64,000 bases of DNA from Rahnella sp. AA (GTDB lineage: Bacteria > Pseudomonadota > Gammaproteobacteria > Enterobacterales > Enterobacteriaceae): the NCBI RefSeq assembly GCF_002834385.1, contig NZ_PITQ01000001.1:124001-188000 (forward strand). The letters run 5' to 3'. Of the stretch, positions 23,987 through 36,484 are shown piece by piece (the first letter of the stretch is position 1; each line of letters begins with the position of its first letter). The translations under genes and the position numbers were made by a program. The notes beneath the pieces are model-generated. The model saw only the letters and a list, made by a program, of their open reading frames with translations, was not told where the DNA came from and ran no database searches.

Positions 23987-24290
23987 CAGTGTTCTGCATG
24001 TGTTCTTTGATACTAGGCACTCTTTAAGCGAAATGAAAGCGTTGTGAGGGAATTAATCCGCATTGCGAAAAATCCGATTACCAGTGAAATACGCTGCTAC
24101 AGGCGGTAATACTCAGTGATATGACGACTTAACTTTTTGTTTTGCGAATTAGATCTGCTCAGCTCACCGTATTTCCACTTCGAACTGGAAAAAGACCCTC
24201 TACACAGGAACTCTCTCCAGGGTTAGGGTAAAGACAGACGAAATCAACGGCTGAAAATAGAAAGTCAGGCAAGGAGAGAGGTAACCGCGA
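23987..24290. other. Divergent control region between rnk and the PRD operon
   Basis: About 300 bases with the presumed promoters of rnk (leftward) and of the accessory operon (rightward). No clear sigma-70 pair stands out. GGCAC-N5-AAGC at 24016-24029 has the spacing of a sigma-54 site but the wrong -12 bases. AAGGAGAGAGG at 24271-24281 is the ribosome-binding region for the first operon gene. Confidence 0.4.
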
Positions 24291-24641
24291 GTGAATAACG
24301 GAACCGCATCTGTGAAAAGTATCGGGCAGGCAGAATTGGAAGATGCTCCGGCGATAACAGAGAAAGTATTAAAAGATATTCAGGCGATGCAAAGTGCGAA
24401 GAATATCTACACCACAGATGTTCAGTTGCAGATGTTAACGTCACACGTTAAAGCCATGGTATTACGCTCAATCACTGGCGAACCATTGCCTGAAGTCGAA
24501 AAAGATTTATTTGACGAAATTTCTGATGAGTCCATGCAAATGGCAGAAGAAGTGGTCAGCTGGTTCGGAAATTTACCGATTGAGGAAGCCTATTTACTCT
24601 CGGTGCATTTCGAAGTCGCGAGAGACAACGAACCGAAATAA
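24291..24641 (+). CDS. Stand-alone PRD domain protein, first gene of accessory operon
   Basis: A 116-residue cytoplasmic protein that is essentially one PTS regulation domain (PRD), the module phosphorylated on histidine by PTS proteins in antiterminators and activators. Two histidines sit where PRDs carry them: H52 (LTSHVKAMVLR) and H106 (LLSVHFEVA), 54 residues apart. It has no DNA- or RNA-binding part. From memory it belongs to the EF_0829/AHA_3910 family, found only with the genes that follow; E. coli YhfY is a comparable small PRD protein. The start is GTG. It probably senses PTS state for the neighbouring transporter or regulator; that role is inference. Confidence 0.85.
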   Translation: MNNGTASVKSIGQAELEDAPAITEKVLKDIQAMQSAKNIYTTDVQLQMLTSHVKAMVLRSITGEPLPEVEKDLFDEISDESMQMAEEVVSWFGNLPIEEAYLLSVHFEVARDNEPK

Positions 24642-24687
24642 CCCTGATATTTGTTTTAACGAATTAACCAAACTGGAGATGTCAATT

Positions 24688-25053
24688 ATGGGACAAGTAT
24701 TAGTTGTGATCGGCGACCGTTTAGGTAAAGGCCAGAAAGTGGCAGCAGGCGTGGAAGCGGCTGGCGGAAGAGCCATTGTTGTCCCTGGTATGGCAGCAGA
24801 TATGAAACTTGGCGACGTGATGAAAGCAGAAGGCGCGACCTTCGGTATTTCCTTCTGCGGCAGCGGCGGCGCCGGTGCGATTACCGCACAAAACAAATAC
24901 GGATATAAAGCCAGGTACGGAATGCGTTCAGTGGATGAAGGTGTAACGGCAATTAACGAAGGCTGTCTGGTATTAGGGTTCGGATTTATGGATAAAGAAG
25001 AACTGGGTCAGCGTCTGGTTGAAGCTTATAACAAGAAGCATGGTCAGGCGTGA
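24688..25053 (+). CDS. Glycine-rich SFCGS-family protein
   Basis: A 121-residue soluble protein named after its motif SFCGSGGAGA (C57, then G58-G63). It starts with an alternating beta-strand segment (GQVLVVIGDRLGKG), suggesting a small Rossmann-like or EIIB-like fold. A cysteine at the start of a glycine-rich loop after a beta strand is also how PTS EIIB domains place their phospho-cysteine; that comparison is my inference. E. coli YhfU has a similar CNTGAGAA motif. I use the ATG at 24688 (TGGAG nine bases upstream) rather than 24679, which abuts the ribosome-binding site. The next gene overlaps by one base. Function unknown. Confidence 0.85.
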   Translation: MGQVLVVIGDRLGKGQKVAAGVEAAGGRAIVVPGMAADMKLGDVMKAEGATFGISFCGSGGAGAITAQNKYGYKARYGMRSVDEGVTAINEGCLVLGFGFMDKEELGQRLVEAYNKKHGQA

Positions 25054-25352
25054 TGAAGCAACAATTAACTACAACAGTTCGGGTTGAAGGAAAGGGCGAA
25101 AATAAGGCTGCCGCCTTTTCTTCCGCACTGAGTCAGGTTCAGAGGACGGTTCTCAAATCTTCGGCCAATAATGTCTTACTGCGCATCGAACCGCAGGACG
25201 TCAAGGTTATTACGGCCGAGGAATCAGTAAAAAGAGAAAAGTTTCTGTTCTTTTTTCTGGCCAGGGAAAGAAAGAGTTATTACGTGGCGTTAGACATTAC
25301 CGTCAACCTGACTGTTATTAATACGGAACAGGTAGTTTTTGTCACGAAATAA
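25053..25352 (+). CDS. DUF4312 family protein
   Basis: A 99-residue protein of unknown function, likely soluble or membrane-associated, with a basic middle (KREKFLFFFLARERKSYYVAL) and beta-rich ends. The ATG at 25053 overlaps the previous stop as TGATG, so translation is coupled. As I recall the family is DUF4312 (EF_0831/AHA_3912) and occurs only in this gene set. Its small size, charge and place directly before two membrane proteins suggest an accessory subunit of the membrane complex; this is inference. Confidence 0.82.
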   Translation: MKQQLTTTVRVEGKGENKAAAFSSALSQVQRTVLKSSANNVLLRIEPQDVKVITAEESVKREKFLFFFLARERKSYYVALDITVNLTVINTEQVVFVTK

Positions 25353-25384
25353 AAACGTTAGCTATAAATGACAAGGATATACTG

Positions 25385-26161
25385 ATGTTTTTAATTATTT
25401 TATTTAAGTCGCTTATTATCGGCGGACTGGTTGGCGTGGGGGTAGGTGCAGGTGCTGCACGTATGTTCCACGCGCCTACCGTGCAAGGGATGGGGGCTTT
25501 TCGTACTCTTGGGGAATTAAATTCCTGTGAAGGCGATCCGGCTTCGCATTTCTCATTTGGTCTGGGCTTCTTCTTTAACGCCTGGGCTTCTTCCGTTGCG
25601 GCGGGGTCTTTCACACAGGACGTCGACCACCGCATCATCCCTCACTGGGCGACCGCTGCCCTGATGTTCAAAAACCGCAATGTGGCTGAAACCATGCACG
25701 ACCCGCGCAAGATGGCGATTGCGGGCGGCATCATCGGCATGATTGTGGTGGCTTTCCTGAATACCACCGCGTCTGCGGTTCCTGCGGCTTTACAGGTGAC
25801 GGCGATTAAAGTGCTGGTGCCTGCGGCCAACCTGCTGGTGAACACCGTGATGCCCGTAATTTTCTGGCTGGCGGCAATCGATGCAGGACGTCGTTCCGGT
25901 TTCTGGGCCACCATTTTCGGCGGTCTGGCGCAGATGATTATGGGTAACGCCGTGCCAGGTCTGGTGCTGGGTATTCTGATCGGGAAAGGCGTTGAAGAAA
26001 GCGGCTGGAACCGCGTCACCAAAGTGATGATGGCGGCGATTATCGCGCTGTTCGCACTCAGCGGCTTCTTCCGCGGTTTCGACGTCAAACTGTTGCAGTC
26101 TTTCATGCTGGATGTTCCCGCGTGGCTGAACGGCATTCACAACTCACTCAGCGGCAAGTAA
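25385..26161 (+). CDS. DUF4311 family membrane protein (putative transporter subunit)
   Basis: A 258-residue polytopic inner-membrane protein with about five to six hydrophobic segments. The first is glycine-rich (SLIIGGLVGVGVGAGAARMF); later ones lie near residues 113-135, 138-165, 173-200 and 215-235. A conserved-looking polar loop between the first two holds GELNSCEGDPASHFSFG and VDHRIIPHW, rich in Cys, His, Asp and Glu, a possible substrate or metal site. It is not a recognisable PTS EIIC, MFS, ABC or APC protein. I recall it as DUF4311 (EF_0832/AHA_3913). With the DUF4310 gene next door it probably forms the uptake channel of the system. Confidence 0.85.
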   Translation: MFLIILFKSLIIGGLVGVGVGAGAARMFHAPTVQGMGAFRTLGELNSCEGDPASHFSFGLGFFFNAWASSVAAGSFTQDVDHRIIPHWATAALMFKNRNVAETMHDPRKMAIAGGIIGMIVVAFLNTTASAVPAALQVTAIKVLVPAANLLVNTVMPVIFWLAAIDAGRRSGFWATIFGGLAQMIMGNAVPGLVLGILIGKGVEESGWNRVTKVMMAAIIALFALSGFFRGFDVKLLQSFMLDVPAWLNGIHNSLSGK

Positions 26162-26173
26162 GGGAGCATGACA

Positions 26174-26821
26174 ATGGAAGAACAAGCCAAACGTGGTTTC
26201 TGGTACGCCGAGTGGTCGTTCCCGATCTTCGTCGGTCTGCTGTCCTCTGGCGTTTTCGCCGGGACGCACATGTATTACCTGTACGGCATTGGTGCTTTTA
26301 ACGAAGTGGCGTTTGTTTCGATGCTGCGTTCAGGCATGGATACCGGCGTGTATGGCGCGGTTGCGGCCTTCGGTGCCAGTTTCCTGTTTGCCCGCATTAT
26401 CGAAGGTTCGCTGGTCGGTATTCTGGATATCGGCGGCGCGATCCAGACCGGTATTGGTCTGGGCGTTCCGGCACTGTTGCTCGGCGCGGGGATTATCTTC
26501 CCGGTGGCGAACTTTGCCGCCTCACTGGTGACCGGCCTGATCCTCGGTTTAGCCGTGGGTTACATCATCATTCTGGCGCGTAAATTCACCATCAATCAGA
26601 GCAACTCCACCTACGGTGCTGACGTGATGATGGGTGCGGGTAACGCCTCCGGCCGTTTCCTCGGGCCGTTGATTATTCTCTCCGCGATGGCCGCGTCGAT
26701 TCCAATCGGCCTGGGTTCACTGCTTGGCGCGCTGGGCTTCTACCTGTGGCAGAAACCGATCACCGGCGGTGCCATTCTCGGTGCGATGGTGCTGGGCGCT
26801 ATCTTCCCGGTATCACTGTAA
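26174..26821 (+). CDS. DUF4310 family membrane protein (putative transporter subunit)
   Basis: A 215-residue inner-membrane protein with about six hydrophobic segments (near 13-35, 43-70, 78-103, 105-130, 160-185 and 190-213). It is glycine-rich within the helices (GVPALLLGAGIIFPVANF), as in transporters. AGNASGRFLGPL is a polar re-entrant-looking stretch. GGGAG at 26161-26166 fits the ATG at 26174; the ATG at 26168 would be only one base away from it. As I recall this is DUF4310 (EF_0833/AHA_3914), always paired with DUF4311. The two together are about the size of E. coli YhfT, an uncharacterised putative transporter; a common origin is speculation. Confidence 0.85.
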   Translation: MEEQAKRGFWYAEWSFPIFVGLLSSGVFAGTHMYYLYGIGAFNEVAFVSMLRSGMDTGVYGAVAAFGASFLFARIIEGSLVGILDIGGAIQTGIGLGVPALLLGAGIIFPVANFAASLVTGLILGLAVGYIIILARKFTINQSNSTYGADVMMGAGNASGRFLGPLIILSAMAASIPIGLGSLLGALGFYLWQKPITGGAILGAMVLGAIFPVSL

Positions 26822-26891
26822 GTACTTCAATAAGAAAGCAGTAATCAGGCGTCAGGATTTCTCTGGCGCCTGAGATTATGGAGAACGTCGT

Positions 26892-28025
26892 ATGTATGAC
26901 TTAATCATCCGACAGGCAAAAAGCACAGACGGCAGCCTGACTGATATTGCAATTCGGGGCGGCAAGTTCGCCGCCATCGGCACGCTGGCGCCCGACGCCA
27001 CCGCCCGCCAGACACTCGACCTCCAAGGCAAGGTTTACGCCAGCGCCGGTTGGATCGACTCCCACGTTCACTGTTACCCAAAATCGCCGATTTATCATGA
27101 CGACGCTGACCTGATCGGCGTGGCCTGCGGTGTCACCACCGTGGCCGATGCCGGAAGCACCGGTGCAAATGACGTCGACGATTTTTATAAGATTACCCTC
27201 GAGGCGAAAACCAACGTCTTTGCGTTTCTGAATATCGCCCGCACCGGCATTGTCACGCAGAACGAACTGGCCGATATGGCGCAGATCGACAAAGTTGGCG
27301 TGCGGGACGCCATTGCGCGCAACCCCGGTTTTATCATCGGGATCAAAGCGCGAATGAGCAGCAGCGTCGTCGGCCAGAACGGTATCAAGCCGCTGGTTCG
27401 CGCGAAAGAAATTCAGCAGGAAAATAATGATTTACCGCTGATGGTTCATATCGGGAATAACCCGCCGAACCTCGATGAAATCGCGGACTTGCTGACTTCC
27501 GGCGACATCATTACGCACTGCTATAACGGCAAACCGAACCGGATCCTGTCACCGGAAGGCGTGCTGCGCGATTCGATTAAACGCGCGCTGAGCCGTGGCG
27601 TGCTGCTCGATGTCGGGCACGGCAGCGCCAGTTTCAGTTTTGAAGTGGCAGAACTGGCCATCAGGCAGGGCATTTTGCCCCACACCATCAGCTCCGATAT
27701 TTACTGCCGCAACCGCATGAACGGGCCGGTTCACAGCCTGGCGACGGTGATGTCCAAATTCTTTAGCGTGGGCATGACGCTGACGCAGGTGATTGACTGC
27801 GTCACCTCTCACGCCGCCGATGCTTTACGCCTGCCTGCAAAAGGGCGTCTTGAAGTGGGCGCTGACGCCGATCTGACGCTGTTTGAACAGCGTTTTGCGC
27901 CGCAGGTGTTTGTCGATTCCGAAGGTCAGTCCGTGAAGGGCGAAAGTTTGCTGGTACCTCTGGCCGCCGTGGTCGCAGGTGTCACTCTGTTAACCGAAGA
28001 AGGGAAATCTGCTCATGTCTTCTGA
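26892..28025 (+). CDS. Amidohydrolase/deacetylase-family metalloenzyme
   Basis: A 377-residue cytoplasmic enzyme of the amidohydrolase superfamily with the full metal set: H58 and H60 (DSHVHCY), K152 (IGIKARMSS, position of the carbamylated lysine), H186 (MVHIGN), H209 (ITHCYNG) and catalytic D269 (SSDIYCRN). Two metals and hydrolysis of a C-N bond in a cyclic amide, ureide or N-acyl group are expected. The closest described relatives are the DgaF-linked amidohydrolase/dihydroorotase-like proteins (EF_0837/AHA_3915, from memory), with no confirmed substrate. The next gene overlaps it by 11 bases. It probably unmasks the amino group used by the PLP enzyme that follows. Confidence 0.9.
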   Translation: MYDLIIRQAKSTDGSLTDIAIRGGKFAAIGTLAPDATARQTLDLQGKVYASAGWIDSHVHCYPKSPIYHDDADLIGVACGVTTVADAGSTGANDVDDFYKITLEAKTNVFAFLNIARTGIVTQNELADMAQIDKVGVRDAIARNPGFIIGIKARMSSSVVGQNGIKPLVRAKEIQQENNDLPLMVHIGNNPPNLDEIADLLTSGDIITHCYNGKPNRILSPEGVLRDSIKRALSRGVLLDVGHGSASFSFEVAELAIRQGILPHTISSDIYCRNRMNGPVHSLATVMSKFFSVGMTLTQVIDCVTSHAADALRLPAKGRLEVGADADLTLFEQRFAPQVFVDSEGQSVKGESLLVPLAAVVAGVTLLTEEGKSAHVF

Positions 28026-29142
28026 ACAATCTTTGTATGAAAAATATCAGCTGAAACAGGTTATTAACGCGTCCGGTCGCATGACGGCGCTCGGGGTTTC
28101 CACGCCGCGTGAAGAGGTGGCGGCGGTGGTGAATACCGGCCTGAATCATTATTTCGAGATGAAGGATCTTGTGAACAAAACCGGTGCCTACATCGCTAAA
28201 TTGCTGAATGTCGAAAACGCGGTGGTGGTGTCCTGTGCGTCTGCCGGGATTGCGCAGTCGGTCGCGGCGGTGATTGTGAAAGATGATGCCTGGCTGCTGG
28301 AAAACCTGCACGCGGCGCCGCTGGAAATCCCTCACGACATCGTGCTGCCAAAAGGCCACAACGTGAATTTCGGTGCGCCGGTAGGCACGATGGTGACGAT
28401 GGGCGGCGGCAAAGTAGTGGAAGCCGGTTATGCCAACGAATGCTCTGCGGCGCAGCTTGCGGCCTGCATTACGCCACGCACGGCGGCCATTCTGTACATC
28501 AAATCCCACCATTCCGTACAGAAAAGCATTCTGTCCGTGGAAGAGGCGGCGCAGGTTGCCCGCGAACATAATCTGCCGCTGATTGTGGATGCAGCGGCCG
28601 AGGAAGACCTGACCTGTTATTACGAAATGGGTGCAGATCTGGTGATTTACAGCGGCGCGAAAGCCATCGAGGGCCCGACCAGCGGTCTGGTGCTGGGCAA
28701 AAAACAATATGTCGAATGGGTGAAGCTGCAATCCGGTGGCATCGGTCGTGCGATGAAAGTCGGCAAAGAAGGCATTCTTGGCCTGACGCAGGCGATTGAA
28801 AGTTACATCACGCTGCCGAAAACCACCGGGCAGGAAATGGTCGACAAAATGACGCCATTTATTGCCAGCCTGAATGAAATCAATGGCGTGACCGGCCGCG
28901 TAGTCTGGGACAGCGCGGGGCGCGATATCGCCCGTACCGAAATTACGTTCGATGAAGCAGTTCTGGGCTGGAAAACCAAAGCCATCGTGGACGCCATGAA
29001 AAACGGCGATATCGCCATTTACTTCCGTGGCTACCGCGCCAACGAAGGCAAGATTGAAGTCGACGTTCGCAGCGTGACGCCGCCGCAGCTCGCCATTGTC
29101 GCCGACCGTTTCAAACAACTTTTCAGTGGAGAGAAAGCATGA
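28015..29142 (+). CDS. DgaE-like PLP-dependent ammonia-lyase (SelA-like fold)
   Basis: A 375-residue fold-type I PLP enzyme of the SelA-like branch. Characterised DgaE of Salmonella turns D-glucosaminate-6-phosphate into 2-keto-3-deoxygluconate-6-phosphate plus ammonia; this enzyme likely does the same type of reaction. The Schiff-base lysine is K216 in YSGAKAIEGPTSG, and D192 (LIVDAAAEEDL) should bind the pyridine nitrogen. An early SCASAGIAQSVAA loop fits phosphate binding. It overlaps the amidohydrolase gene by 11 bases and the aldolase gene by four. Whether the substrate is glucosaminate phosphate or another amino acid sugar is open, because the Dga PTS genes are absent. Confidence 0.88.
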   Translation: MSSEQSLYEKYQLKQVINASGRMTALGVSTPREEVAAVVNTGLNHYFEMKDLVNKTGAYIAKLLNVENAVVVSCASAGIAQSVAAVIVKDDAWLLENLHAAPLEIPHDIVLPKGHNVNFGAPVGTMVTMGGGKVVEAGYANECSAAQLAACITPRTAAILYIKSHHSVQKSILSVEEAAQVAREHNLPLIVDAAAEEDLTCYYEMGADLVIYSGAKAIEGPTSGLVLGKKQYVEWVKLQSGGIGRAMKVGKEGILGLTQAIESYITLPKTTGQEMVDKMTPFIASLNEINGVTGRVVWDSAGRDIARTEITFDEAVLGWKTKAIVDAMKNGDIAIYFRGYRANEGKIEVDVRSVTPPQLAIVADRFKQLFSGEKA

Positions 29143-29879
29143 AGCTGACCCCAAATTTCTATCGTGACCGCGTCTGTCTGAACGTTCTGGCAGGGTCAAA
29201 AGACAATGCCCGGGATATCTACGAAGCCGCAGAAGGGCATGTGCTGGTCGGTGTGCTTTCCAAAAACTACGCGGATGTCACAAGCGCCGCCGCCGACATG
29301 AAGGAATATGCCGCGCTTATCGAAAACGCGCTGTCCGTAGGCCTGGGCGCGGGCGATCCGCGTCAGTCGCGGATGGTCAGCCAGATTTCCCAGCAGGTTC
29401 AGCCGCAGCATGTGAATCAGGTATTCACCGGCGTCGGCACCAGCCGTGCGCTGCTCGGCCAGAACGACAGTGTGGTCAACGGCCTGATTTCGCCGACCGG
29501 CAAAGCCGGTTTCGTCAAAATTAACACCGGGCCGCTGAGTTCCGCAGCCAGTGACGCGATTGTGCCGGTGGAAACTGCGATTGCGCTGCTCAAAGACATG
29601 GGCGGCAGCTCGGTGAAATATTTCCCGATGGGCGGCCTGAAAACCCGTGAAGAATTCGCTGCCGTGGCGCGTGCCTGTGCTGAACAGGATTTCTGGCTGG
29701 AGCCGACCGGTGGTATCGATCTGGAAAACTTCGAGCCGATTATGGAAATCGCGCTGGCCGCTGGCGTGACCAAAATCATCCCGCATATCTACAGCTCTAT
29801 TATCGACAGCGCGACCGGCAATACCCGTCCTGACGATGTGAAAACCCTGCTGGCCAGCGTCAAAAAGCTGATTGGCTGA
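29139..29879 (+). CDS. DgaF-like 2-keto-3-deoxy-6-phosphogluconate-type aldolase
   Basis: A 246-residue class I aldolase-like TIM-barrel protein. DgaF cleaves 2-keto-3-deoxygluconate-6-phosphate to pyruvate and glyceraldehyde-3-phosphate, feeding glycolysis. The likely Schiff-base lysine is K160 in SSVKYFPMGGL, the KDPG-aldolase-type motif; EPTGGIDLENF is the following phosphate-site region. Its ATGA overlap with the PLP enzyme gene means they are co-translated and act in sequence. It closes the catabolic part of the operon; the regulator gene follows after 128 bases. Confidence 0.88.
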   Translation: MKLTPNFYRDRVCLNVLAGSKDNARDIYEAAEGHVLVGVLSKNYADVTSAAADMKEYAALIENALSVGLGAGDPRQSRMVSQISQQVQPQHVNQVFTGVGTSRALLGQNDSVVNGLISPTGKAGFVKINTGPLSSAASDAIVPVETAIALLKDMGGSSVKYFPMGGLKTREEFAAVARACAEQDFWLEPTGGIDLENFEPIMEIALAAGVTKIIPHIYSSIIDSATGNTRPDDVKTLLASVKKLIG

Positions 29880-29955
29880 ACAGCCTGACGTCTTCTTTAT
29901 CGTGTAACATCATTGCAAAGTCATTTACTCAATGAATTAATAGATTATTAATATT

Positions 29956-29979
29956 GCCGGATACAAACAGGTATCCGGC
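29956..29979. promoter_or_regulatory. Inverted repeat upstream of the PRD regulator gene
   Basis: GCCGGATAC (29956-29964) and GTATCCGGC (29971-29979) form a perfect 9-bp inverted repeat with a 6-base loop, 28 bases before the regulator start. No T run follows. It could be an operator for autoregulation or an mRNA hairpin that lowers expression relative to the upstream enzymes. Confidence 0.5.
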
Positions 29980-30007
29980 ACTGGCATTTGGTATTCCAGG
30001 AAGAATA

Positions 30008-31927
30008 ATGGTGAGATTTCCCAATCAACGGCTGGCGCAATTGTTTGATGCACTGCAAACCGAGACCCTGCCTCAGGATGAGCTGGCAAAACGCCTGGCG
30101 GTATCGACAAGAACGGTGCGTGCTGATATCACTGCGCTCAATGAAATCATTGCCGGTTACGGCGCAACGTTTGTCCACAACCGGGGATGCGGATATCAGC
30201 TGCGCATCGACGATCAGGCGTTGTTTTCGTCGTTGCAGCAATCAACGCAACGTAAACCTAACCCGACGCCGCGCACCGCTGCGGAGCGGGTGAAGACGTT
30301 GCTGATCCGCTTTTTGACCTCAGCTTTTTCATTAAAGCTGGAAGATCTGGCCGATGAATGGTTTGTCAGCCGGGGAACCCTGCAAAATGATATGGCTGAG
30401 GTGAGAGAGCATCTGGCGCGCTATCACCTGAATATCGAAACCAAACCGCGATACGGCATGAAGCTGTTCGGTGCGGAACTGGCGATCCGTGCCTGTCTGA
30501 CCGATTTATTGTTCCAGCTCGATGCCGAAGAACAGGCTAACCCGCTGCTGAAGGCCGAAAGTCTGGAGCCGGAAGCGCTGGTTCCGTTAACGCGTTTCAT
30601 GCATCAGCTGCTGACGCAGTCTTCTATTCAGCTCACCGATGAAGGTGAGCAATATCTGATTCTTTATTGCGCCGTGGCGATCAAACGTATAACCGGCGGT
30701 TACCCGCTGACGGATTTTGATGCCGAAGACGGCGACCCGGCGGTGAAGCAGGTTTCTGTGCGACTGGCGGCAGAGCTGAAAAATCTGGTCGGAAAGGAAA
30801 TTCCGGCCTCGGAGGAGGCGTATCTGCGGGTGAATATTGCCGCGCGCCGGGTACAGAAAATTTTGCCGACGGACATTAACGCCGACGACGATGAATCGCT
30901 GGTTGATTACATTCTTTCGTACATCAATTCGCACTATAACTATGATTTGCAAGGCGATAAGCAGCTGCGTGCGGACCTGCTGACGCACATCAAAACCATG
31001 ATTACGCGGGTGAAATACCAGATTAATATCCCGAACCCGCTGCTGAGCAACATCAAACAGCATTATCCGATGGCGTATGACGTTACGCTGGCGGCGGTGT
31101 CGAGCTGGGGGAAATACACGCCGTACACGCTGAGCGAGAATGAAATTGGTTTTCTGGTGCTGCATATCGGCGTCGGGCTGGAGCGGCATTACAACATTGG
31201 CTACCAGCGCCATCCGCAGGTCATGCTGGTCTGTGATACCGGTAATTCGACCATCCGTATGATTCAGGCGCAGATTAACCGCAAATATCCGCAACTGGTG
31301 ATGAAACAGATCGTTTCGCTGCGCGATTACGAGCAACTGGAACACATCGACGAAGATTTTATTATCTCCAACGCCCGCATTACTGAGAAGAATAAGCCGG
31401 TGGTGGTGCTGTCGCCGTTCCCGACGGAATACCAGATGGAGCAGCTCGGCAAGCTGGTGCTGGTCGATCGCACCCGGCCTTATATGCTGGAAAAATTCTT
31501 CGATGAAAAACACTTTATGATCGTCAATGAGCCGATGACGCAGGCGGAGCTTTTCCGCCATGTGTGTTCGCAGCTTGAAGAGGAAGGGTACGTCGATCAG
31601 ACGTTTTACCCGTCGGTGGTGGAACGTGAGGAAATTATCTCGACCATGCTGGGCGAAGGTATTGCGCTGCCGCACTCGCTGGGTTTGCTGGCGAAGAAAA
31701 CCGTGGTTATCACGCTGCTATCACCGCAGGGCATTGCCTGGGGCGAAGGAGAAACGGCGCACGTGATTTTCCTGCTGGCGATCAGCAAGGCAGATTACGA
31801 AGAGGCGATGGCGATTTACGATTTGTTCGTGACGTTTGTGCGGGAGCGTTCGATGAGCCGGCTGCTGAGCAGTGAGAATTTTGAAAGCTTCAAGGCCATT
31901 GCGATCGATTGCCTTTCACGAATTTAA
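30008..31927 (+). CDS. PRD/EIIA-containing transcriptional regulator (MtlR/LicR-like)
   Basis: A 639-residue DNA-binding activator of the multi-domain PRD type. Domains in order: HTH (AKRLAVSTRTVRADI, 27-41), second HTH (about 90-150), PRD1 (about 190-290), PRD2 (about 295-400; H327 and H386), a GatB-like EIIB domain (C409 in LVCDTGNST) and a fructose/Ntr-type EIIA domain (H556 in IALPHS). PRD1 has C221 where its second histidine would be. Such proteins turn on a sugar operon when the PTS signals substrate presence and low glucose. The ATG at 30008 follows AGGAAG. It lies in the same direction as the operon it probably controls. The EIIA domain may be the only EIIA in the system. Confidence 0.9.
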   Translation: MVRFPNQRLAQLFDALQTETLPQDELAKRLAVSTRTVRADITALNEIIAGYGATFVHNRGCGYQLRIDDQALFSSLQQSTQRKPNPTPRTAAERVKTLLIRFLTSAFSLKLEDLADEWFVSRGTLQNDMAEVREHLARYHLNIETKPRYGMKLFGAELAIRACLTDLLFQLDAEEQANPLLKAESLEPEALVPLTRFMHQLLTQSSIQLTDEGEQYLILYCAVAIKRITGGYPLTDFDAEDGDPAVKQVSVRLAAELKNLVGKEIPASEEAYLRVNIAARRVQKILPTDINADDDESLVDYILSYINSHYNYDLQGDKQLRADLLTHIKTMITRVKYQINIPNPLLSNIKQHYPMAYDVTLAAVSSWGKYTPYTLSENEIGFLVLHIGVGLERHYNIGYQRHPQVMLVCDTGNSTIRMIQAQINRKYPQLVMKQIVSLRDYEQLEHIDEDFIISNARITEKNKPVVVLSPFPTEYQMEQLGKLVLVDRTRPYMLEKFFDEKHFMIVNEPMTQAELFRHVCSQLEEEGYVDQTFYPSVVEREEIISTMLGEGIALPHSLGLLAKKTVVITLLSPQGIAWGEGETAHVIFLLAISKADYEEAMAIYDLFVTFVRERSMSRLLSSENFESFKAIAIDCLSRI

Positions 31928-31935
31928 AATCTTAC

Positions 31936-32064
31936 TTATCCCCAAAATAGTTCGAGTTGCAGGAAGGCGGCAAACGAAGGAGTCCCGATGAGCTTACACG
32001 AGTAAGTGATTCGGGTGACTGAGCGCAGCCAACGCACCTGCAACTTGAAATATGACGGGGATTA
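31936..32064. repeat. ERIC element (enterobacterial repetitive intergenic consensus)
   Basis: About 129 bases with the ERIC landmarks: GAGTTGCAGGAAGGCGGCAA at the left, GAGCTTACA-CGAGTAAGTGA-TCGGGTGA in the middle, and CAACGCACCTGCAACTTGAA-TATGACGGGG at the right. The ends are inverted repeats (TTATCCCC and GGGGATTA). The right end runs into the stop codon of ptsO (32062-32064). It separates the accessory operon from the core ptsO-rpoN cluster and forms a large RNA hairpin in both transcripts. Confidence 0.92.
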
Positions 32065-32334
32065 GTCCTCGTCGAAACCGGAGTTGATGAGATTAACGAC
32101 GGCGGTCAGCGCCTGTTCTTCGTCGGGGCCGGTGGCTTCGATTTCAATCTGCTGGCCTTTCGGAGAATCCAGCATCAGCAGGGCGATCACGCTGCTGGCT
32201 TCCGCCTCAATGCCTGTGCCGTTGCGCAGCATCACTTCTGACTCAAAGCTCTGCACCAGTTCAAATAACTTCATCGCCGGACGGGCATGCATCCCTAACC
32301 GGTTTTTGATTTCTACCGTTTGTTTAACCGTCAT
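32062..32334 (-). CDS. ptsO: Nitrogen-PTS phosphocarrier NPr
   Basis: NPr is the HPr-like phosphocarrier that passes phosphate from PtsP (EI-Ntr) to PtsN, part of the regulatory PTS governing potassium uptake, envelope stress and amino-sugar metabolism. The 90-residue protein has the phospho-histidine H16 in [10 protein letters not shown] and the usual serine region near residue 46 ([11 protein letters not shown]). It overlaps the rapZ stop by four bases and is the last gene of the rpoN cluster. The E. coli neighbour yrbL is missing; the stop codon touches an ERIC element instead. Confidence 0.96.
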
Positions 32335-33185
32335 GATTTACGTTTTTCCAGCGTGCGATGGCGGGACTGGACGTTCTTCCCGCGGGAACGGAAATAGTCA
32401 GCCAGCTGTTCTGCGATATACACCGAACGGTGTTTACCGCCGGTACAGCCAATGGCGACGGTCAGATAGCTGCGGTTGTTGGTTTCCAGTGCGGGCAGCC
32501 ATTGTTCAAGGTAGCTGCGCGTCTGGTAGATAAAATTATGCACTTCGGTATGACGGTCGAGGAACGCGGCAACCGGTTTGTCGAGACCGGTCATCGGGCG
32601 CAGTTTCGGATCCCAGTGCGGGTTCGGCAGGAAGCGCACGTCGAAGACGTAATCTGCATCAATTGGAATGCCGTGTTTGAAACCAAAGGATTCAAAAACC
32701 ATAGTCAGTTCACGTTCGCGTTTGCCCAGAAGGCGTGTACGCAGCATTTCAGCCAGTTCGTGAACAGACATCTCGGAGGTGTCGATGATCAGATCCGCGG
32801 AAGAACGCAAAGGTTCAAGCAGATCAGCTTCTTCATCGATAGCACTTTCAAGGGACAGGTTTTTGCTGGAAAGCGGGTGCAGACGACGGGTGTCGCTGTA
32901 ACGGCGGATCAGGGTATTTCGGTCAGCATCGAGGAACAACAGCTGCGGCGAGAAGCTTTCCGGCAGCTGTGACATCGCATGTTCATAAACTTCCGGTGTT
33001 TCTGGCATGTTACGCACGTCAATGCTGACGGCCGCAGACGTATTACGCTCAACGAGGGTCTGGGCAAGCTGCGGCAGTAACACTACCGGCAGGTTATCCA
33101 CGCAGTAAAAACCCATGTCTTCTAATGCCCTAAGGGCAACCGATTTCCCGGAACCGGAACGGCCGCTGACAATCATCAGCACCAT
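32331..33185 (-). CDS. rapZ: RNase adapter protein RapZ
   Basis: RapZ senses glucosamine-6-phosphate and directs RNase E to the small RNA GlmZ, lowering GlmS synthesis when the metabolite is plentiful; it also activates the QseE/QseF system. The 284-residue protein has a Walker A motif at residues 8-15 (GRSGSGKS) and the C-terminal RNA-binding part ([16 protein letters not shown]), ending in a basic tail. Its start is 145 bases downstream of the ptsN stop. Confidence 0.97.
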
Positions 33186-33330
33186 GGTGTCACTCCCCTG
33201 GCATTCAGTGTTCAGAATTCGCTCATCCCGGCATTAACCGGGAACCATCATTGGTAAAATCGTGCCAGCCAAAAAGTGGCGGCTGGCTTAAACGGTATTG
33301 CGTAATTTGACTCAAAACAGGCCGGCGACT

Positions 33331-33801
33331 TTACTCGTTTTCGGTCATGATCTGAAAGAGTTCTTCGTCACTTTGCGCACCACGCAGGCGACGACACACC
33401 CCTTTATCTGCCAGTTTTTTTGCAACCAAAGACAGGGTATGTAAATGGGTTTTACATTGATCTGCCGGAACCAGCAAGGCAAAAAGCAGATCCACAGGCT
33501 GATTATCGATAGCATCAAAAGCGATCGGTTGATCGAGCTGGATGAATACCCCGACAGCGCGTAAAGTATCTTCTTCCAGCTTGCCGTGCGGGATAGCGAT
33601 CCCGGCACCGATCCCGGTGCTGCCCATGCGTTCACGGGTCAAAATGGCGTCGAAAATCACTTGTGGCGACAAATTTAATTGCCTGGCTGCCAGTTCGCTG
33701 ATGATTTCCAGCGCACGTTTTTTGCTGGCGCAATGAACGCCGCTTTTGGTGCATTCGGCATTAAGCACCGACGTTAATTGCATTGCAGTATCGTTAATCA
33801 T
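33331..33801 (-). CDS. ptsN: PTS-Ntr enzyme IIA (PtsN)
   Basis: PtsN is the output protein of the nitrogen PTS; unphosphorylated it controls TrkA and KdpD, and it binds other partners such as GlmS. The start at 33801 gives 156 residues beginning MINDTAMQLTSVLN, aligned with the E. coli start; a GTG at 33813 would add four residues without a better ribosome-binding site. The phospho-histidine is H72 in IAIPHGKLE. The C-terminus is slightly shorter than in E. coli. Confidence 0.95.
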   Translation of the reverse strand: MINDTAMQLTSVLNAECTKSGVHCASKKRALEIISELAARQLNLSPQVIFDAILTRERMGSTGIGAGIAIPHGKLEEDTLRAVGVFIQLDQPIAFDAIDNQPVDLLFALLVPADQCKTHLHTLSLVAKKLADKGVCRRLRGAQSDEELFQIMTENE

Positions 33802-33911
33802 GTCATCTTTCACTTTTGCGCTGTTTCACCCTTAAAGCTATATCGGCTCGTTTCCCGAAGGTCACAAGCCGATGCCCGAAGGTTTGTAGCACAGGGTTGG
33901 CTACATGAATA

Positions 33912-34199
33912 TCAGTGCTGTTTCAGTTTATCTTTATGTTTGTTCAGCTGGCGGGCCAGTTTATCAACCAGACCGTCAATCGCCGCGTACATATCCTGAT
34001 GTTCCGAGGTGGCATGCAACTCGCCTCCATTCACATGCAACGTTGCTTCCGCAACTTTCTGCACTTTTTCCACACTCAAAACCACATACACCTGATTAAT
34101 CCTGTCGAAATACTGCTCAAGCTTAGCCAGTTTCAGGGTTATAAATTCTCTCAGGGGGTCGGTTATCTCAATGTGATGTCCGGTAATGTTGAGCTGCAT
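33912..34199 (-). CDS. hpf: Ribosome hibernation promoting factor HPF
   Basis: HPF binds the 30S decoding site and, with RMF, drives formation of inactive 100S ribosome dimers in stationary phase. The ATG at 34199 yields 95 residues, exactly the E. coli short form, with MQLNITGHH, LAKLEQYFDRINQVYVVL and the basic C-terminus LNKHKDKLKQH. The open frame continues upstream to 34226 across the rpoN stop but has no family match there. Confidence 0.96.
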   Translation of the reverse strand: MQLNITGHHIEITDPLREFITLKLAKLEQYFDRINQVYVVLSVEKVQKVAEATLHVNGGELHATSEHQDMYAAIDGLVDKLARQLNKHKDKLKQH

Positions 34200-34222
34200 A
34201 ATGTCTTCCTTCTCTGTTGAGG

Positions 34223-35656
34223 TCAAACTAACTGTTTACGTTGGTTTGAGGGCGGGATGGACAAAGACTCTCGGTATTTGGCGACGGTCCGTCGTGCCAC
34301 CATAATTCCCTGATCGGAAAGCAGGGTGGCTAACTTACTGTCACTGAGCGGTTTTACAGGATTCTCCGCTGCGATTAATTTCTTCACCAGCGCCCGGATC
34401 GCGGTTGACGATGCCTCGCCGCCGCTGTCGGTACTGACATGGCTGGAGAAGAAATATTTAAGTTCGAAAATGCCACGCGGGCTGTGCAGGAACTTTTGCG
34501 TCGTTACGCGTGAGATTGTCGATTCGTGCATTTCCACGGCGCTGGCGATGTCGGCCAGTACCATGGGTTTCATGTACTCTTCACCTAACTCAAAGAACGT
34601 CTGTTGCTGCTCAACAATGCAGCGCGTCACTTTCAGCAGTGTGTCGTTACGGCTTTCCAGGCTTTTGATCAGCCATTTGGCTTCCTGCAAATTGCTGCGG
34701 ATAAACTGCCCGTCGCTGTCGCTGCGTGCGGAGCTCCCCATCGCAGCGTATTGCTGGTTGATCTTCAAACGCGGAATGCTGTCGGAATTCAGTTCCACTG
34801 TCCAGACTCCCGATACCTTGCGCACGAGCACATCCGGGATCACGTATTCGGATTCACCGGTATTGATCGACTGGCCCGGCCGCGGATCAAGAGACTGAAT
34901 CAGAAGCATGGCTCCTTTCAGTGTATCTTCTTTTAGCCGGGTTGAACGCATAAGTGCTCGGAAATCATGGTTTGCCAGCAAATCCAGATGTTCGCTGATG
35001 ATCAGACGGGCTTCGGCGATAAAAGGGGTGTCAGTGGCGTACTGAGAAAGCTGAATGAGCAGGCAGTCACGCAGATCACGCGCAGCGACACCCACCGGGT
35101 CAAAACGCTGAACGCGTTTCAAAACGGCTTCCACCTCCTCCATGCTGACGTTTTCGTCACCGATGCTTTCGAGGATATCGTCAAGAGAAACCGTCAGATA
35201 GCCGGTATCGTCCACGGCATCGACAATTGATGTGGCGATGGCGGCGTCAGTATCCGAAAACGGGGTCAGTTCAACCTGCCACATCAGGTAATCCTGAAGC
35301 GTCTGCGTGGTTTCGCCCTGATAAATCGGCAACTCATCATCGCTGTAATCGTTGCCAGTGCCGGAAGGTGTACCCGCGGTATAAATCTCGTCCCAGGTCG
35401 CGTCCAGCGGAAGCTCTTCTGGCATGTCTTTTTGCTCGAGCGCCTCGCGGGTGTCCAGACCTTCGCTGTCCGTGGTTTCTACCGCATCAATCTCATCATG
35501 CAGGTCAGTTTGTTCCAGCAGAGGGTTGCTCTCCAGCGCCAGTTGGATCTCCTGTTGGAGCTCAAGCGTGGACAATTGCAACAGGCGGATGGCCTGTTGT
35601 AACTGAGGAGTCATTGCCAGTTGTTGGCTGAGTCTGAGTTGCAAACCTTGCTTCAT
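34223..35656 (-). CDS. rpoN: RNA polymerase sigma-54 factor RpoN
   Basis: Sigma-54 directs RNA polymerase to -24/-12 promoters that need an AAA+ activator, covering nitrogen assimilation and other stress and transport functions. The 477-residue protein has the Gln-rich activator-contact region I (residues 1-50), an acidic region II, the core-binding domain, the HTH, and the C-terminal RpoN box [10 protein letters not shown]. It lies 102 bases downstream of lptB, the usual order. Confidence 0.98.
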
Positions 35657-35758
35657 ATCTTGGCTTTATTTCCGTTGATGAGTGAAAACGGCAACACTTC
35701 TGTCAGAGACGGCCTGTTTCAGTGTAGGTGGAAACAGGCAGGGTTCCGGCGGCACGGA

Positions 35759-36484
35759 TCACAGACGGAATTCTTCACCAAGATAAACACGTTTAACCTG
35801 TTCATCAGCAAGAATGTCGGCTGGCGTGCCGTGGGCGATCAATTTCCCCTGACTGACGATATACGCACGCTCACAAACATCGAGTGTTTCGCGAACGTTA
35901 TGGTCAGTGATCAGTACGCCGAGGCCGCTGTCACGCAAATGTTCAATGATTTTTTTGATGTCGATAACTGAAATTGGGTCAACACCGGCGAACGGTTCAT
36001 CCAGCAGGATAAACTTAGGGTTCGCTGCCAGAGCACGGGCAATTTCAACACGACGACGTTCACCGCCGGACAATGATTGACCGAGGTTATCGCGCAAATG
36101 GGAAATATGAAACTCTTCCATTAATTCGTTAGCGCGATCGTTACGCTGATCTTTAGTCAGGTCATCGCGGATTTGCAGAACGGCCATCAGGTTATCAAAT
36201 ACGCTGAGGCGGCGGAAAATGGACGCTTCCTGAGGAAGATAACCAATGCCGCGTCGGGCGCGGGTGTGCAACGGAAGGAGGCTGATGTCTTCATCATCGA
36301 TAACAATACGGCCTGCGTCGCGTTGTACAATACCGACGACCATATAAAACGTCGTGGTTTTACCCGCACCGTTCGGCCCTAATAACCCGACGATTTCACC
36401 TGAATTGACCATCAGGCTGACATCTTCAACGACCTTTCGGCCTTTGTATGCCTTGGCCAGATTCTCTGCGATTAATTTTGCCAT
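35759..36484 (-). CDS. lptB: LPS export ATP-binding protein LptB
   Basis: LptB is the ATPase of the LptB2FG complex that extracts lipopolysaccharide from the inner membrane and powers its passage to the cell surface. The 241-residue ABC protein has Walker A GPNGAGKT (36-43), the signature LSGGE (138-142) and Walker B with D162-E163 (ILLDEPFAG). It follows lptA by 6 bases. Essential in E. coli. Confidence 0.98.

Follow-up and report, generated by a model that had tools for sequence, protein, structure and literature searches.

The genome of Rahnella sp. AA carries a nine-gene operon which ends in enzymes resembling those of amino-sugar acid breakdown and includes a pair of membrane proteins outside the described transporter families. 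Which compound does this operon degrade, and how does that compound enter the cell? We addressed these questions in a stretch of 64,000 nt (contig NZ_PITQ01000001.1, positions 124,001-188,000 of the forward strand, assembly GCF_002834385.1), hereafter the window, in which the nine genes occupy positions 24291..31927, all on the + strand. Our preferred interpretation, to which we give a little less than even confidence, is that the operon serves the catabolism of an N-acetylated 2-amino-2-deoxy aldonic acid, most likely N-acetyl-D-glucosaminate, which would be taken up as its 6-phosphate through coupling to HPr and EI of the phosphotransferase system (PTS) and degraded to pyruvate and triose phosphate. 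Papers are cited below by PubMed Central number.

Gene content, conservation and regulation

The first eight genes each score above curated NCBIfam cut-offs (bits, cut-off given second). In order, they encode a small PRD protein (24291..24641; TIGR03582, 131 against 69; also PF00874), an SFCGS protein (24688..25053; TIGR03577, 220 against 141), a DUF4312 protein with no hydrophobic segment by hydropathy (25053..25352; TIGR03578, 122 against 90), the membrane proteins DUF4311 (25385..26161; TIGR03580, 495 against 301) and DUF4310 (26168..26821; TIGR03579, 390 against 215), each with five hydrophobic segments in a simple scan, an amidohydrolase of the EF_0837 family which we propose to be an N-deacetylase (26892..28025; TIGR03583, 545 against 432), a DgaE-family ammonia lyase dependent on pyridoxal phosphate (PLP) (28015..29142; TIGR01437, 585 against 385), and a DgaF-type aldolase acting on 2-keto-3-deoxygluconate-6-phosphate (29139..29879; TIGR03581, 400 against 222; also PF07071). 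The ninth, a PTS-responsive regulator, exceeds no NCBIfam cut-off and was recognised by the Pfam domains HTH_11, Mga, PRD (in two stretches) and EIIA_2; it is listed from a TTG at 29954, a start that probably lies too far upstream, as the HTH domain is preceded by an in-frame ATG at 30008 (30008..31927). Seven families with EF names plus TIGR01437 thus lie adjacent and above their curated cut-offs, which makes the operon a member of the NCBIfam cluster EF_0829-EF_0839/AHA_3910-3917, as a previous sequence-only reading had stated. That reading had also described nine co-directional genes with overlaps of 1, 11 and 4 bases, and the family searches and coordinates agree: the amidohydrolase and lyase genes overlap by 11 bases, the lyase and aldolase genes by 4, and the SFCGS and DUF4312 genes by 1 if DUF4312 begins at the ATG at 25053, whose methionine is the conserved one in the alignment, or by 4 if it begins at the GTG at 25050. 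The G+C content is 53.7% for the operon and 51.8% for the window, and among named loci Rahnella laticis comes closest, its nine proteins being 95-100% identical.

To survey gene neighbourhoods we used DUF4311 as anchor and took the genome loci of the best 80 among 498 confirmed relatives; by name, 79 are Enterobacterales, and the remaining one (L088) is listed as Xenophilus. All nine genes are present in identical order in 77 of the 80; among the three exceptions, two (L080 and L089) end at a contig edge, and in L044 the 1.4 kb left before the contig end holds no match to the regulator. Because 77 of 80 loci keep the nine genes in order, the set is not a chance assembly. Since this survey has a single anchor, three of the protein families were also searched for in a sample of 343 genomes from the window's family. 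DUF4311 is over its cut-off in 163 of these genomes; the strong matches listed comprise DUF4311 in 165 genomes (172 with a match, minus seven weak ones), SFCGS in 165 and the amidohydrolase in 164, with all three together in 163. The claim of a single catabolic operon of co-occurring families therefore stands. Neighbouring genes were compared in 80 complete loci (77 of the genome loci plus those of Enterococcus faecalis, Bartonella and Klebsiella pneumoniae), taking open reading frames within 4.5 kb.

Upstream of the PRD gene lies a 20-bp near-perfect palindrome, TTTCCACTTCGAACTGGAAA (24172..24191, no strand assigned). In 79 of the 80 genome loci (all except L041) the 330 bp preceding the PRD gene contain the core of this palindrome, TTTCC-N10-GGAAA, which is seen only twice elsewhere in the 1.6 Mb of those loci. 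The core was also found in K. pneumoniae, Aeromonas and Bartonella sp. HY406, and once, shortly before the PRD gene, in Bartonella sp. HY761; it was not found in the E. faecalis locus. An earlier scan for any palindrome matching at 16 or more of 20 positions had found one in 68 of 85 upstream stretches, versus 9 of 85 single-base shuffles. The palindrome is probably the binding site of the operon's own regulator, a putative pairing that we infer from position and conservation. Across the genome of the window, allowing up to two mismatches, the only exact match is this site, with one other match at two mismatches; the regulator therefore seems to serve this operon alone. Its PTS-type residues are well conserved: H345 and H404 of the PRD stretches in 81 of 81 aligned rows, C427 in an EIIB-like loop in 97.5% and H574 of the EIIA domain in 98.8%. 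The E. faecalis regulator has no EIIA domain. Although the small PRD protein lacks a DNA-binding domain, both of its PRD histidines (H52 and H106) are conserved. No Rfam family exceeded its gathering score, and promoter-like sites were no more frequent than in shuffled sequence.

Enzymes and a proposed route

The sequence-only reading had assigned the end of the pathway to the DgaE/DgaF type, and both profile matches and conserved residues bear this out. The aldolase exceeds the cut-off of the DgaF equivalog NF047796 (387 bits, cut-off 300) and has solved relatives. The lyase falls below the strict DgaE equivalog NF047797 (354 versus 600 bits), and no second copy of DgaE was found in the window's genome. 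In the Salmonella lyase (D-glucosaminate-6-phosphate ammonia-lyase, DGL), His162 and His163 are close to the active site, and docking put the phosphate in the vicinity of Arg301, Arg332 and Arg346 (Phillips et al., PMC9529869). In our alignment the counterparts are H165, H166, R307, R338 and R352; the catalytic lysine, H166 and the three arginines are kept in 82 of 82 rows, and H165 in 81 of 82. As the lyase keeps these phosphate-binding residues, its substrate should already be phosphorylated.

The amidohydrolase has 8wzy, 2ics, 2ogj and 8je0 as relatives in the PDB. Enzymes of the group of 2OGJ reportedly deacetylate R-configured alpha-acetylated acids, and enzymes of this group (cog3964) were reported by Ornelas et al. 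in 2013 to hydrolyse acetyl-(R)-mandelate and, weakly, N-acetyl-D-serine. Since N-acetyl-D-serine corresponds to the first three carbons of N-acetyl-D-glucosaminate, our guess is that this acid or its 6-phosphate is the substrate. Six candidate metal-binding residues, chosen by motif, are invariant in 82 of 82 rows. To call this an amidohydrolase without known substrate was thus too pessimistic: 2OGJ has been argued not to be a true dihydroorotase and has been set apart from those enzymes (PMC12524618).

A third enzyme occurs in a subset of loci. Between the aldolase and the regulator, 36 of 80 loci carry a long open reading frame, and in all 36 its product shows at least 59% identity to the K. 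pneumoniae protein. This protein and that of L015 are PF10282 lactonases, and the N-termini displayed resemble signal peptides by eye. Placed outside the cytoplasm, such an enzyme would suit an aldonic acid whose initial form is the lactone. The gene is absent from the operon in the window, and the genome of the window has no close copy (best match 31%).

From these observations we infer a substrate, its phosphorylation on entry and roles for the five upstream proteins. Where the lactonase is present, the acid would be formed from the lactone outside the cytoplasm. The DUF4311/DUF4310 pair would then import it, helped by SFCGS, DUF4312 and the small PRD protein, and through coupling to HPr and EI it would arrive in the cytoplasm as the 6-phosphate. 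There the amidohydrolase would strip the acetyl group, the DgaE-like lyase would remove water and ammonia to give 2-keto-3-deoxygluconate-6-phosphate, and DgaF would cleave this into pyruvate and glyceraldehyde 3-phosphate. Control would fall to the PRD/EIIA protein, which would sense phosphorylation by the PTS and act at the TTTCC-N10-GGAAA site.

The uptake module and its possible link to the phosphotransferase system

The earlier statement that the membrane pair belongs to no described transporter family is upheld: DUF4311 and DUF4310 match no Pfam or NCBIfam family beyond their own, and neither they nor DUF4312 have a PDB sequence relative at E < 0.5. By the same family searches the nine proteins include no mannose-family PTS subunits of the DgaABCD type. 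For SFCGS, an AlphaFold2 model (predicted local distance difference test, pLDDT, 88.5) finds its best structural matches in RpiB and LacAB, by both Foldseek and VIA-align, so that in predicted fold the protein agrees with the RpiB/LacAB superfamily. It shares with these sugar-phosphate isomerases a cysteine loop, in which C57 of a CGSG motif is conserved. It differs from them in having no match to PF02502 at E 0.1, in aligning I89 with H99, and in missing the C-terminal arginine tail, as judged by sequence alignment; the histidine and the tail both have roles in the isomerases. An EIIB-like phospho-cysteine protein was also considered for SFCGS and is unsupported, the model matching RpiB/LacAB instead; the absence of EIIB from the match lists does not by itself exclude it.

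A similar gene plan is seen in the yhf operon of E. coli and Cetobacterium (loci L096 3436-10845 and L116 4294-12657), which likewise combines a PRD protein, a small protein (DUF2620), a membrane protein (YhfT) and enzymes. The Cetobacterium order is PRD, DUF2620, YhfT, an amidase, a phosphotriesterase-related protein, two PLP enzymes and a phosphopentomutase, and the E. coli set is related. YhfY matches TIGR03582 below its cut-off (1.6e-6), and YhfU gives weak scores to LacAB_rpiB (E 0.065) and NF006753 (E 0.0019), the latter presumably a LacAB type; YhfU may thus share the RpiB-like fold. The enzymes differ, and sequence comparison gave no significant link for YhfT with DUF4311/DUF4310, nor for YhfU with SFCGS; we did not accept YhfT as a relative of the membrane pair (best HH-align E 0.0038, probability 8.7%). 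With no convincing similarity at either point, what the two systems have in common is the arrangement of their genes and, perhaps, some of the small proteins. We regard it as doubtful that the PRD protein, the RpiB-fold protein, DUF4312 and DUF4311/DUF4310 together act as a PTS-driven group translocator of a new class. In such a system the small PRD protein would replace EIIA as phosphate carrier and the RpiB-fold protein would replace EIIB in sugar handling, and the yhf operon (YhfY, YhfU and YhfT) would be a second branch.

Several observations point to entry linked to the PTS. The lyase should act on a phosphorylated substrate, yet no sugar kinase was found in Pfam scans of representatives of 18 of the commonest neighbour clusters of the 80 complete loci and of the lactonase, rarer neighbours and the rest of the genome lying outside the scan. 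The regulator and the small PRD protein also keep histidines of the PTS type. On both Bartonella plasmids (see below), moreover, the tenth gene, directly after the operon, encodes an HPr-EI fusion. Its relatives in Caballeronia and Azospirillum stand beside the PTS permease gene ptsG (two records examined of 232 matching), and in Bartonella it is the operon that stands where the permease would be.

Several observations weigh against this interpretation. The HPr-EI protein may serve the regulator alone. The E. faecalis locus carries in addition a PTS EIIC of the normal kind, a hypothetical protein, MupG (MupG_N/MupG_C) and, 3' of the aldolase gene, a PfkB kinase. DUF4310-4312 and SFCGS have no sequence match to any EIIB, EIIC or EIID family in NCBIfam or Pfam, and the AlphaFold2 model of DUF4311 with DUF4310 (one run; pLDDT 53, predicted TM score 0.39) is too poor for fold comparison. 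SFCGS looks like an isomerase, a reaction superfluous to the proposed scheme. For the same acid, ong clusters have been reported in certain Klebsiella and Serratia (PMC9537276), which speaks against a unique role. Finally, the association with lytic polysaccharide monooxygenases (LPMOs), considered below, is weak.

Other modes of entry are conceivable. PRD regulators respond to the PTS without being parts of a transport system, and the membrane pair could be a secondary, ion-driven permease for the free acid, the PTS elements being regulatory only and a kinase being encoded elsewhere on the chromosome. The kinase gene in E. faecalis would suit such an arrangement, as would the ong pathway, which imports free acid by a carrier of the solute:sodium symporter (SSS) family (PMC9537276); against it stand the lack of a sugar kinase among the common neighbours scanned and the plasmid of Bartonella sp. 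HY406, where HPr-EI adjoins the operon and no sugar kinase is annotated. We consider this permease unlikely, though a serious contender. Entry of a sugar acid that is phosphorylated beforehand, comparable to the import of hexose phosphates by UhpT, would account for the retained phosphate-binding residues and for the lack of a kinase among the common neighbours, and the yhf operon, to judge by its phosphotriesterase-related and phosphopentomutase genes, seems to handle phospho-compounds. The Bartonella HPr-EI would however be needless for such import, and no phosphate-antiport family was found among the nine proteins (NCBIfam, Pfam); we think it very improbable.

The identity of the substrate can be questioned too. 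Chitin-active LPMOs leave an N-acetylglucosaminate end (PMC12017989), and Aeromonas has LPMOs with distant or no matches to OngB and OngC, its authors allowing for other deacetylases and deaminases (PMC11653859); the operon might then be specific to oxidised chitin ends, as a phosphorylated counterpart of the ong pathway. The LPMO family PF03067 was found in 42 of 165 genomes with the operon versus 30 of 178 others (odds ratio 1.68, p = 0.063, uncorrected for tiny genomes and kinship), and the window's genome has none. Given these results we judge such specificity improbable: N-acetyl-D-glucosaminate may be the substrate, but the operon does not merely accompany LPMOs. It is also conceivable, though rather unlikely, that the substrate is a different N-acyl amino-sugar acid or lactone, such as a galactosaminate or a muramic-acid derivative. 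The position of the lyase below the strict DgaE cut-off would accord with a different acid, as would the E. faecalis version of the operon, which contains a PTS EIIC and MupG, a 6-phospho-N-acetylmuramidase; the aldolase, however, exceeds the DgaF cut-off, and MupG within the operon was seen in that single locus only.

Distribution, relatives and significance

Across a whole-phylum sample the operon is rare (7 of 299 genomes). No relatives were found in viral contigs, and a blastn search with the first 4 kb of the operon found no copy in E. coli genomes. The sequence-only reading had implied that the set moves as a unit. In the Enterobacterales this holds poorly: pmbA lies within 4.5 kb upstream in 62 of the 80 complete loci (cybC in 45 of 80), so that the operon sits mostly at one inherited place. 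In some lineages transfer is real. Among six records with DUF4311 in the plasmid collection PLSDB, the two from Bartonella have replication and partition genes and seem to be genuine plasmids; one Klebsiella record, which includes housekeeping genes (mpl and fbp among them), is probably a piece of chromosome, and the Aeromonas record and the second Klebsiella record are of chromosome size. Records of these latter kinds (NZ_CP129856.1, CP125156.1, NZ_AP026896.1 and NZ_CP143580.1) inflate counts of plasmid-borne copies. The Bartonella plasmids (HY406, L012; HY761, L124) are about 55 kb, join the operon and HPr-EI with type VI secretion genes, and show an inverted duplication of rep/ParA genes (HY761 being examined over its first 18.6 kb); that of HY406 also carries TonB-receptor and ATP-binding cassette genes of siderophore type.

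Single loci show departures. In Aeromonas caviae KAM479 (L013 6987-9441, a chromosome-size record) the start of DUF4310 reads in frame into the end of the aldolase, with no match to the amidohydrolase or lyase, which marks an internal deletion or an assembly fault. In Pantoea brenneri (L041 9207-9866) the SFCGS gene has a broken reading frame, and a search upstream of the PRD gene did not find the operator core; this copy is possibly decaying, or contains a sequencing error. An apparent SFCGS-DUF4312 fusion there was rejected as an out-of-frame reading. Weak DUF4311 matches in L009 and L010 were likewise set aside, lying in a protein with a DnaJ-like end, which we take to be DjlA. Directly downstream of the operon in the window, on the opposite strand (32062-36484), are genes that we take from their sequence to be npr, rapZ, ptsN, hpf, rpoN and lptB; a nitrogen-PTS gene group thus adjoins a PTS-regulated operon, and in 20-28 of the 80 complete loci genes of this group are present no more than 4.5 kb downstream.

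Three described systems invite comparison. The Salmonella dga operon closes its pathway with the same types of lyase and aldolase, and its DgaABCD is a PTS permease yielding the 6-phosphate (PMC9529869, PMC3844500). The operon studied here differs in lacking PTS permease subunits and a sigma-54 activator, in having an additional deacetylase, and in a lyase below the strict DgaE cut-off. In E. faecalis, EF0839 has been suggested to act in amino-sugar breakdown, with transposon-sequencing evidence of a fitness role (PMC7701990), and induction in urine was seen for a promoter fragment that derives from ef_0839 or from ef_2975, a copy identical to it (PMC2912369); that locus differs in its extra EIIC, MupG and kinase genes and in the missing operator core. 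The ong cluster of Pseudoalteromonas, for GlcNAc1A, similarly proceeds by deacetylation and deamination to 2-keto-3-deoxygluconate-6-phosphate; there, in contrast, the acid is not phosphorylated first, the carrier is of the SSS family, and KdgK acts after OngC (PMC9537276). Neither an OngB-type deacetylase nor an SSS carrier is among the nine proteins, whose deacetylase is of TIGR03583; no search for ong genes was made in the remaining genome.

The system had been called undescribed, which holds for its function: full-text searches with family and locus names found no study assigning one, most subscription papers being beyond reach. It does not hold for the families, which are already catalogued, nor for the amino-sugar link of EF0839 (PMC7701990). 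What the present analysis adds is the RpiB-like fold predicted for SFCGS, the operator, the frequent lactonase and the link to HPr-EI. Our reading offers a testable substrate and a phosphorylate-first route, a route which the authors of the ong study weighed and found unlikely in their organism, and it puts forward a candidate for the two activities, deacetylase and deaminase, which the Aeromonas study left unassigned (PMC11653859). These families are still named 'hypothetical' or of 'unknown function' even though DUF4311 exceeds its cut-off in nearly half (163 of 343) of the sampled genomes of the window's family. The enzymes look ordinary; the novelty may lie in the uptake module, perhaps a new kind of carrier linked to the PTS. 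If this module is indeed driven by the PTS, it would represent a permease architecture which, to our knowledge, is found in none of the PTS families.

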